A DNA stretch of 64,000 nt from Anaerolineae bacterium (lineage in GTDB: Bacteria; Chloroflexota; Anaerolineae; Aggregatilineales; Ch27). The position numbers and the translations under genes were made by a program. Position 1 is the stretch's first letter. Every line of letters begins with the position of its first letter. Under the pieces are notes generated by a model. It saw only the letters and a program-made list of their open reading frames with translations, had not been told where the DNA came from and searched no databases. Of the stretch, positions 40,594-44,194 are shown in pieces. The stretch covers positions 1 to 64,000 of the forward strand of contig JABLXG010000010.1 in assembly GCA_013178165.1 (NCBI GenBank). The letters are read 5' to 3'.

Positions 40594-41181
40594 TCAGTAA
40601 GGGCGGCAATAGGTCAGCGTCGGGACTTCTACGCCATCGGTGAAGGTGAGGGTAGTGATGGAAGCGGTTTCCGGGAAGGGGTTGATCAGGAACTGCGTTT
40701 CCAGCGTAAAGGGCAGGCCACGCACCCACAGGTGCATCCACAGCAGCAGCTCCCCATGAGTGACGGCGACGACTTCGCCCTGCGGGAAGCGGCGACGCAC
40801 CCGGCGGATGAAGCGCTGCGCCCGGTTAAAGATGTCTTCCGGCTGTTCGTAATGGGGCGGGATATCCGTGAACATATCCCAGCCGCTAGCTTCGAGCTCG
40901 GCCAGCGGGCGGCCTTCATGGGGGGTATGCGTCTCATCCAGCAGGCGGGAGATGCGCACGCGCAAATCGGGATGCTGACCGGCGATGATCCGGGCTGTCT
41001 GGACGGCGCGCAGACGCGGGCTGCTGAAGACAGCCGCCAGCGGGCGCGCCTGCAGGACTCTGGCGGCGGCCTCCGCCTGCACCCGGCCCGTTGCACTGAG
41101 CGGGAAGCGGGGCAGCCGCCCATAAAGCAGCTGCGCCGGGTTGTGTACCTGACCATGCCGGACAAAATGGATGACGGTCAT
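40594..41181 (-). CDS. Histidine phosphatase family protein (copy 1)
   Basis: A 195-residue phosphoglycerate mutase-like phosphatase. VIHFVRHGQVHNP carries the RHG phospho-histidine motif; VFSSPRLRAVQTARIIA, DETHTPHEGRPLAELEA and VVAVTHGELLLWM (second histidine) complete the site. It dephosphorylates a small metabolite, or a sugar phosphate in nucleotide or cobamide side pathways; substrate unknown. ATG 41181 is preferred over a TTG at 41217 because AGGA precedes it. It lies directly after a close paralogue on the same strand. Confidence 0.85.
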   Translation of the reverse strand: MTVIHFVRHGQVHNPAQLLYGRLPRFPLSATGRVQAEAAARVLQARPLAAVFSSPRLRAVQTARIIAGQHPDLRVRISRLLDETHTPHEGRPLAELEASGWDMFTDIPPHYEQPEDIFNRAQRFIRRVRRRFPQGEVVAVTHGELLLWMHLWVRGLPFTLETQFLINPFPETASITTLTFTDGVEVPTLTYCRPY

Positions 41182-41213
41182 AAGCCCATCCTGGCGTCGC
41201 CACAGAACGGCGG

Positions 41214-41795
41214 TCAATACGGTCGCAGGTAGCTCAGTGCTGGCAGGCGCGCGCCATCGACAAAGGCCAGCGTGGTGATTGACGCGGTGGCGGGATAGGC
41301 GGCGCGATTCTTGGTGTCATCGGTGAAGGGGATGCCGGCCACCCAGAACTGCACGGCCAGCACAATGTCGCCGTGGGTGACCACTGCTACCTCCTGGCCA
41401 GGGTAAGCCGCCCGCAGCCGTCCGATCAGGCGCAGGACGCGCCTGAGGACATCCTCCGGCGTCTCATAGCCGGGCGGCAGATCGGCGTAGAGCCGCCAGC
41501 CCTCGGCCTCCAGATCGGCGGTGGCGCGACCCTGATGCGGGCTGCGCACTTCATCCACCAGCGTGGAAAGGCGCAACGGTAGCCCGTGCGGGCGGGCGAT
41601 GATGGCAGCCGTCTGCCGGGCGCGCAGGCGCGGGCTGCTGATCACAGCAGTCAGCGGGCGATCCTGCAGGTACGCCGCGGCGGCGGCGGCCTGCTCAAGA
41701 CCCCGCTGGCTCAGCCGGTAACGCGGCAGCCGCCCGTAAAGAATGTGCTGCGGGTTATGCACCTCGCCATGGCGAACAAAATAGATGGTAGTCAT
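41214..41795 (-). CDS. Histidine phosphatase family protein (copy 2)
   Basis: A 193-residue paralogue of the preceding entry with the same order of motifs: TIYFVRHGEVHNPQHILYGR, VISSPRLRARQTAAII, DEVRSPHQGRATADLEA, EVAVVTHGDIVLAVQFW. The two share the unusual end A-S-I-T-T-L-x-F-x-D-G and a closing LRPY/CRPY, so they arose by tandem duplication. A good ribosome site is not obvious. It lies upstream in the operon; 32 bases separate the genes. Divergence suggests different substrates. Confidence 0.83.
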   Translation of the reverse strand: MTTIYFVRHGEVHNPQHILYGRLPRYRLSQRGLEQAAAAAAYLQDRPLTAVISSPRLRARQTAAIIARPHGLPLRLSTLVDEVRSPHQGRATADLEAEGWRLYADLPPGYETPEDVLRRVLRLIGRLRAAYPGQEVAVVTHGDIVLAVQFWVAGIPFTDDTKNRAAYPATASITTLAFVDGARLPALSYLRPY

Positions 41796-41915
41796 CAAAC
41801 CCGTCGGGGTCAACAGCCGGTGGGGCAAAACGCAGCCGCCAGCAAGACACAGCCCAGACCCTCAGGCCCGCCAGAAAGGGGCGGTCTGGCGCCTGGCCGC
41901 GCTTATTCTACCCGG

Positions 41916-42438: not shown

Positions 42439-43092
42439 ATGCTTCAAGAAAAGAATCGGGGGCGCATCATCGCCGGGGCTGCGCTGATTCTGCTGGGTCT
42501 GGCCCAGATCATCACCAACAGCGTTGACGCATCGTGGGAAGTCTGGATGTGGGTTGTGGCGCTGGCTGTGTCGGCCATCGGCTTCGGCTGGCTATACCTG
42601 GCTGAGCGCCAGGTCTGGCAGGTCATTGTGGCTTATGTCTCCGCTGCGGTGCTGGTCGTTGTGGTCATCGCTGCCGTGCTCAAGTTGAGCGGCGTCTGGG
42701 TGCCAGTGATTGTGCTGCTGCTGATCGCCGCGCCCTTTGCCTATAGCGCCTACCGGACCCGCCAGTGGGGACTGGCCATCCCGGCCTATGTCCTGGTAGC
42801 GATCATCCCGGTGCTGTTCCTGGGGGAGGCGGGCAATGAGTCCCAGCTTGTCCCGGCTTATGTCCTGGGCGTGATTGGCCTGCCATTCATCGTTGCCTAT
42901 CTCTACACCCGCCAGTGGCCGCTCCTCATCCCCGGCGGGATCATGGTGCTGATGGCGCTGGCGTTCCTGTTCAGTGCGGTCGAAACGGTTGGCCCGGTCA
43001 TCAGTGTTGTCGTGGCGGTGATCATGATCGTGGCGGGCGCCTATATGCTCCTGGCCGGGCGCGGAGAGGAAAAGCCCAAGCGCGAAGGTTAG
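42439..43092 (+). CDS. Polytopic membrane protein, unknown
   Basis: A 217-residue protein with about eight helices in four hairpin pairs (IIAGAALILLGLAQIITN, VWMWVVALAVSAIGFGWLYL, and so on), ending in a short basic tail (RGEEKPKREG). Internal similarity between halves (TRQWGLAIPAYVLVAIIPVL and TRQWPLLIPGGIMVLMALAF) indicates duplication of a two-helix unit. GGGGGG lies 9 bases before the ATG. No conserved catalytic motif was seen. Alone between convergent genes. Confidence 0.7.
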   Translation: MLQEKNRGRIIAGAALILLGLAQIITNSVDASWEVWMWVVALAVSAIGFGWLYLAERQVWQVIVAYVSAAVLVVVVIAAVLKLSGVWVPVIVLLLIAAPFAYSAYRTRQWGLAIPAYVLVAIIPVLFLGEAGNESQLVPAYVLGVIGLPFIVAYLYTRQWPLLIPGGIMVLMALAFLFSAVETVGPVISVVVAVIMIVAGAYMLLAGRGEEKPKREG

Positions 43093-43180
43093 GCAGCGTG
43101 CCTGTACCCGGCCCAGAGGCAATCCGGAGTACTCACCGGGGTGGTCAGGGATGGCCACCCCGGTTCCTGTTTCTCATCGA

Positions 43181-43690
43181 ATTCTTATAAAAATGACTGG
43201 ATTTATCAACAAATGTGTGCTATGGTACGTATGGTTGAGCGTGAAAACGCTTGATCGGCAGAGTCCACCATCCCAACCCCATCACTGCCCGTGGACTCGC
43301 CTGCACAGACGAAGCTACTGACATTGACCCTCAATGTTCAATCCCCCCCCTGTAGCATCGTCTGTGCAGGCGAGTTCACCGTTGAAGCCCACTATCACAC
43401 TCCGGACTTAGCCGGGCATCGCCATCGTCAATCTCCATTATTGCTCATCGCCGCCCGCATCGTTGATCGTTGCTGCCCCATCCCTACCGGGCGATGCCAT
43501 CTCAACTGAGACAGGCTCCTTATACCAGCATCTGTGCCCTCCTGGAGCCTGTTTTGGAAAGCACACGGCGGCTCCTGAACATTCAGGGGCCGCCGTACTG
43601 CATTATTGCCGGGCGACAGGGCACGTTGCAAAATTCGCAACGCCATCGCCCACGACTTCTGCCGGGCTATCTTCCTATACCAGGAAGAAC
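43181..43690. other. Hairpin-dense intergenic region
   Basis: A ~500-base stretch without a credible gene, between convergent genes. It contains at least seven inverted repeats: AGCGT-GAAA-ACGCT (43239-43252); GAGTCCAC with GTGGACTC (43261/43291); the long palindrome at 43291-43379; GGCATCGCC with GGCGATGCC (near 43425/43490); ACAGGCTCC with GGAGCCTGT (43511/43543); a 15-base hairpin at 43565-43596; and nested GGGCGA/TCGCCC around CGTTGC/GCAACG (43611-43651). The density far exceeds what terminators need, suggesting structured RNA or a decayed element. No known RNA class recognised. Confidence 0.5.
43291..43379. repeat. Long imperfect palindrome
   Basis: The left arm runs from GTGGACTCGCCTGCACAGAC and the right arm from TCGTCTGTGCAGGCGAGTTC; about 22 bases pair with one mismatch, and the stem continues through a GCTAC/GTAGC step. 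Inside sits a perfect ACATTGA-CCC-TCAATGT hairpin. Confidence 0.75.
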
Positions 43691-44194
43691 TCACCCGGCC
43701 AGCTGCGCATAGGTTTCCCCCGTCCAGGCCCGGATCGCATCCCAGTCGCGGAAGTCGCCCTCCGGCGGTTTCATCATGCGCATCATCATCTTCTCCAGCA
43801 GGCCCAACCGCGCCGGCAGCATCCTCCCGGCGAAGAATCCTTCCGCCTGCGGGGTGAAGATGGCCCGCACAGGGTCGAGATAGGCATGCACGGTCTGGCG
43901 GTTTTCCGGTGTGTCCTCATGTAAGGTCAGGCACACGGTGAAGAACGCGGTTGGGCGCTGGCTCAGCGCGTCTTTGTGCGCTTCCACAAAGGACACCGCT
44001 TCCTTGAGCCACTGGCCAACACGGATGGCGCTACCGACAAAGGCCAGATCATAGCCGTCCAGGTCGCGCACGTTCTTGATCGGCACTACGTCCACTTCAG
44101 CGCCTGCTTCCCGCAACACCTTGCCCATGAATTCGGCCACCTCAGCCGTGGCGCCGGTCTTGCTGGCATAGGCGACCAGGACTCGCTTGCTCAT
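43691..44194 (-). CDS. Flavodoxin-like protein (paralogue)
   Basis: A 167-residue flavodoxin-fold protein, paralogous to 2268-2786. VLVAYASKTGATAEVAEFMG is the FMN-phosphate loop, LAFVGSAIRVGQWLKEAVSF the second signature, and EGDFRDWDAIRAW the C-terminal HemG/FldA-like end. FTVCLTLHEDTPENRQTVHA differs from its paralogue. AGGAG lies 12 bases upstream. It follows a CydD-like ABC gene by 113 bases on the same strand and may share its transcript, so a redox link to cytochrome maturation is possible (inference). Confidence 0.82.
   Translation of the reverse strand: MSKRVLVAYASKTGATAEVAEFMGKVLREAGAEVDVVPIKNVRDLDGYDLAFVGSAIRVGQWLKEAVSFVEAHKDALSQRPTAFFTVCLTLHEDTPENRQTVHAYLDPVRAIFTPQAEGFFAGRMLPARLGLLEKMMMRMMKPPEGDFRDWDAIRAWTGETYAQLAG

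Follow-up and report, generated by a model that had tools for sequence, protein, structure and literature searches.

A hairpin-dense interval between convergent genes

The window analysed here is a stretch of 64,000 nucleotides, and its gap at 43181-43690 lies between a membrane-protein gene (without a Pfam match) and a convergent flavodoxin-domain gene (PF12724, E 6e-29). A repeat search of this gap revealed a GAAA-looped stem at 43233-43256; a 28-nt pair, 93% complementary, at 43291-43318/43352-43379 with a 33-nt spacer; and further inverted repeats at 43415-43423/43490-43498, 43506-43519/43544-43557 and 43565-43579/43582-43596. Folded as a plus-strand RNA, positions 43220-43700 reach -206.7 kcal/mol as compared to -144.1 +/- 5.6 kcal/mol in dinucleotide shuffles (z = -11.1), with none of 100 shuffles as stable, and the minus strand of 43165-43700 gives z = -5.9 against shuffles of the same kind. 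The features of the locus are as follows:

42439-43092, plus strand: membrane-protein gene, 5' neighbour of the RNA
43135-43164, plus strand: intrinsic terminator of gene 42439-43092, a 13-pair stem followed by TTCCTGTTTCT, outside the RNA
43180-43192, plus strand: UP-element-like A+T block AATTCTTATAAAA, identical in all three genomes that carry the RNA
43198-43226, plus strand: predicted promoter (sequence and alignment), with -35 TGGATT, a 17-nt spacer and an extended -10 TGC-TATGGT
43232-43387, plus strand: conserved RNA core of ~155 nt
43233-43256, plus strand: 5'-terminal hairpin H1, GGTTGAGCGT-GAAA-ACGCTTGATC
43257-43290, plus strand: C-rich linker ACCATCCCAACCCCATCACTGCCC, unpaired by computed accessibility
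43291-43379, plus strand: H2, a 28-position near-perfect hairpin with arms 43291-43318 and 43352-43379 (repeat search and fold)
43321-43337, plus strand: H2b, a small stem-loop in the apical loop of H2, ACATTGA/TCAATGT
43341-43351, plus strand: exposed C8 loop ATCCCCCCCCT, proposed target-binding seed
43415-43498, plus strand: H3, a weakly supported helix of GGCATCGCC/GGCGATGCC closing a pyrimidine-rich loop
43506-43557, plus strand: hairpin H4, with an invariant CAGGC/GYCTG core
43565-43596, plus strand: hairpin H5
43691-44194, minus strand: flavodoxin-domain gene, convergent

An earlier, sequence-only reading had taken the whole interval for a possible non-coding RNA, citing at least seven inverted repeats, a GAAA tetraloop stem, a long palindrome and a nested hairpin at 43611-43651. 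The structural density between convergent genes is confirmed by the located repeats and the folding energies, and the tetraloop stem and the palindrome correspond to H1 and the arms of H2. The inverted repeats are present, some of the seven hairpins lying outside the RNA; the nested hairpin is present in the window and lost in the sister species described below. The extent of the RNA was overestimated: its promoter begins at 43180 and the RNA itself at ~43232, while the 3' part of the interval is fast-evolving intergenic DNA. Positions 43180-43387 very probably hold an RNA gene with its promoter, and 43600-43690 is best read as ordinary intergenic DNA.

Elsewhere in the window, two tandem overlapping minus-strand genes (40594-41828) encode closely similar proteins; the second (41214-41828) belongs to the histidine phosphatase superfamily (PF00300), and the first looks by eye like its paralog.

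Distribution and conservation of the RNA

The RNA sequence is present in one copy in its own genome, a second match being the palindrome against its own reverse strand. R1, a covariance model built on the promoter and the core, matched 3 of the 154 genomes of the order; among 396 genomes from the class and 400 from the phylum it found nothing new under stricter filters that may lose weak matches. A syntenic copy is held by the MAG 'Chloroflexi bacterium S1bins113' (G001), a sister species of the same genus. In 'Aggregatilineales bacterium D110_maxbin.037' (G002), of the same family and another genus, the copy is at a non-syntenic locus. Of the two genes around it, both assigned by eye, one is WD40-like and the other, which is convergent, encodes a secreted, glycoside-hydrolase-like protein. 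The G002 ortholog of the window's upstream neighbour is on another contig, with no RNA copy beside it. Two more members of the family (G003 and G004, 82-84% complete) yielded no homolog with every first-look candidate scored, and plasmid records yielded no match. A viral-contig match to CTCGCCTGCACAGACGA (L017) and a Thiomargarita match to the C8 pattern (L016) were rejected as chance, each occurring without the remainder of the RNA.

Comparison of the window with G001 revealed a single difference in the 150 sites of 43231-43380 (99.3% identity), as compared to 78% identity at third codon positions of the neighbouring gene (22% differ) and 67% in the intergenic DNA of 43381-43510. At the third-position rate, the binomial probability of one or no change in 150 sites is 3e-15. 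The sole difference in the core falls on an A.A mismatch inside H2. Judging from the alignments, the core is unlikely to code for protein, because it shows no third-position drift and its loop differs by 7 nt in length in G002.

Positions 43490-43523, in the 3' half of the RNA region, also match a G002 sequence (L007 1501-1535) at 91% over 34 nt, on the strand opposite to a gene that looks MTAP-like by eye; this stretch is not conserved in G001, and the resemblance may reflect chance or an antisense relation.

A conserved promoter-like sequence precedes the core

The counterpart of the promoter in G002 has -35 TTGATT, a 16-nt spacer and -10 TATGCT, the last again preceded by TG. The promoter-region pattern occurs once in each of 3 of the 154 genomes of the order, and these are only the genomes that carry the RNA. 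A strict consensus promoter scan did not list 43198-43226; its conservation and spacing suggest that it serves as the promoter. Transcription is predicted to start at ~43233, which is also where the invariant block and hairpin H1 begin.

A promoter-like stretch, ACTATGGTATAATAC (TATGGT/TATAAT), which resembles the -10 of the new RNA, is found upstream of the genome's RNase P RNA (L021, ~1470-1500).

Helices are maintained in different ways

Of the three homologs available, two have nearly the same core, and covariation statistics are accordingly thin. H1 is kept as a helix in G002 with its letters rewritten: of 8 pairs, 4 are changed on both sides and 2 on one side, and every pair still forms. 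A hairpin like it arises in 1.25% of shuffles. H4 comprises 14 pairs in one of the genomes and 15 in each of the other two; no pair is broken, 4 are changed on both sides and 3 on one side, its register in G002 being anchored on the CAGGC core. H2b shows one both-side and one one-side change in G002. For H3, one both-side and one one-side change in G002 stand beside two broken pairs, and a helix as large arises in 43% of shuffles, which leaves H3 plausible and weakly supported by the alignment. The sequence-only reading had named compensatory stem changes as the support to look for, and H1 and H4 provide them among these three sequences; together with the near-invariant 5' block, the retained promoter and the second, non-syntenic locus, they uphold its non-coding RNA reading.

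H2 behaves differently: its arms are almost sequence-invariant in the three genomes, without any compensatory change, the differences in G002 being a G-U change at one pair and a new mismatch at another. The loop sequence ATCCCCCCCCT is identical in the three RNAs, has an unpaired probability of ~0.95-1.0, and is the only long unpaired stretch common to all of them. Within the linker, GAGTCCAC (43261-43268) has an alternative partner, GTGGACTC (43291-43298) in the 5' arm of H2, and in this alternative helix G002 replaces one T-A pair by C-G.

At the 3' side, a GC-rich hairpin lies at the place matching H5 in G002. H5 is likely a bidirectional 3' end, used by the RNA and by the convergent flavodoxin gene; its tail is T-poor on both strands, and a clear T-rich terminator of the RNA was not seen in the window genome.

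An orphan RNA gene and its possible modes of action

Taken as sequence evidence, these data very probably reflect a new, lineage-restricted small RNA gene on the plus strand. The RNA is previously undescribed and absent from Rfam, a literature search found no described sRNA from Aggregatilineales, and its known range is so far three genomes of one family. The predicted transcription unit has the marks of a trans-acting small RNA gene: its own promoter, an orphan position and conserved structure. In the mechanism that we favour, an independent RNA would be transcribed on the plus strand from its own promoter, starting at ~43233 and probably ending at H4/H5 (some 330-370 nt, of which ~155 nt would form the functional core). 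H2, the long hairpin that follows the C-rich linker, would present an 11-nt single-stranded loop, AUCCCCCCCCU, which would pair in trans with the G-rich ribosome-binding sites (RBSs) of a set of mRNAs and block their translation. We infer transcription, repression and the identity of the mRNAs that it would meet, and we consider the statement as a whole, from orphan gene to blocked G-rich RBSs, somewhat probable.

Other readings deserve weight to different degrees. The same RNA gene could have a protein or another RNA as its main partner, the C8 run being a protein site (a sponge or scaffold), or it could switch between conformations, with GAGUCCAC (43261-43268) and the 3' arm of H2 as rivals for GUGGACUC. 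This family of readings, the switch included, is unlikely, though it would account for the retention of the H2 arms in sequence, as expected if an arm joins two pairings, and for the compensatory change kept in the alternative helix; against it, protein sequestration usually shows repeated sites and a single C8 loop is present here, and H2 dominates the calculated fold. That the H2 arms are conserved without compensatory change, which RNA structure alone leaves unexplained, counts against the mechanism that we favour. A bolder version, which we hold to be improbable, would see a new RNA class: a sequence-invariant, rigid hairpin of 22-28 bp with a single C8 loop, whose 5' arm is contested by a 5' segment so that active and inactive folds are switchable. 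The DNA-level conservation of the arms would also suit an element in which H2, as a 28-position inverted repeat with a 33-nt spacer, is recognised by a protein or recombinase and the remainder is incidental. We find this highly improbable: the conserved promoter immediately precedes the conserved block, pairing rather than sequence is kept in H1 and H4, the element has a single copy per genome, and the non-Watson-Crick cells of H1, H2, H2b and H3 comprise 12 G-U vs 2 A-C on the plus strand, as expected for a plus-strand RNA.

Readings in which the locus holds no RNA of its own, or one that acts only in cis, fare worse still. Ordinary intergenic DNA, with terminators and chance structure, would fit the terminator of the upstream gene at 43135-43164, the position of H5 where the flavodoxin gene should end, and the fast divergence of the 3' third of the interval from G001. 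Such a reading, or that of a decayed mobile element, which the sequence-only reading had named as its own possible undoing, has very little to recommend it given the 99.3% identity of the core, the second locus in another genus, the compensatory changes and the single genomic copy. High structure, conservation and an own promoter would equally befit a cis-acting leader or riboswitch; in both genomic contexts, however, a same-strand downstream gene is absent and the next gene is convergent, and therefore there is no mRNA for the RNA to lead, which makes this the least credible of the readings considered.

G-rich ribosome-binding sites as candidate targets

For the preferred reading, that of a trans-acting RNA with a C8 seed, we surveyed RBSs in 1.22 Mb of the genome using a simple home-made gene caller. 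A run of at least six G at RBS distance precedes 15 of the 919 called genes, gene 42439 among them, as compared to 0 of 919 for a run of at least six C; the RBS of gene 42439, AAGGGGGG, is one possible C8 target. Computed duplexes of the loop with G-run RBSs range from -16 to -23 kcal/mol, and a GGAGG control gives -5.9. G-rich RBSs show opportunity, not targeting, because they are expected anyway from anti-Shine-Dalgarno pairing. A search for exact GGGGGGGGAT sites in the window genome (G000) and in G001 and G002 revealed no consistent conserved RBS target among the matches listed.

A G7 RBS is found at C4:244131 of G000 and a G6 RBS at C1:298219; the genes behind them, named by eye, are apparently nrdR and that of a succinate dehydrogenase membrane subunit. 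Candidate targets of this kind, with G6-G8 RBSs, make the C8 idea directly testable.

Comparison with known RNAs

Consistent with the sequence-only reading, which recognised no known RNA class, no family of Rfam 15 lies at or near its gathering score at the locus. The best low-score matches are eukaryotic microRNA precursors, which cover the long hairpin only and fall far below their gathering scores. Like 6S RNA (RF00013), the new RNA is an orphan, highly structured gene of housekeeping type; it differs in that H2 is without the 6S central bubble, and identity is ruled out by a negative scan of the window and by the genome's 6S RNA on contig C34 (71.3 bits). RNase P RNA (RF00010) is similar in length and has its own promoter; it too is excluded, the genome's RNase P RNA being on contig C22 (272.7 bits).

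C-rich single-stranded stretches of the RsaE-type sRNAs of Bacillota pair with Shine-Dalgarno regions. The likeness is one of general idea only, namely the C-rich single-stranded stretches; these RNAs belong to another phylum, and Rfam scans gave no sequence or structure match to them. PMC4409812 describes RsaE.

The closest parallel is 6C RNA (RF01066; B11 or ncRv13660c of mycobacteria). The B11/6C sRNA of mycobacteria represses via C-rich loops that act on G tracts in RBSs, and a reporter with loop mutants showed repression of a gene with six G in its 5' UTR (PMC10470900). Both are orphan sRNA genes with one or more exposed C runs in hairpin loops and a proposed action on G-rich RBSs, a pairing that is energetically possible for the new RNA by calculation. 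6C, an RNA of Actinobacteria, is modelled over 75 positions and has two hairpins with C loops, whereas the new RNA, of ~155-370 nt and from Chloroflexota, carries a single C8 loop on its 28-position hairpin (the H1 loop is GAAA) and also has a 5' hairpin apart from it and an extension at the 3' side. At the locus, cmscan reported no 6C match at E up to 5, against a gathering score of 47 bits; the best 6C scores in the three genomes (19-27 bits) are below this cut-off and at other loci, and sub-threshold 6C matches also occur in 4 of 14 control genomes. Since the 6C model does not recognise the locus, we do not regard the new RNA as a 6C member or homolog; by hypothesis, and by analogy, it would work like 6C. 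If action through the C8 loop is true, RBS regulation by C-rich loops arose independently in Chloroflexota and Actinobacteria.
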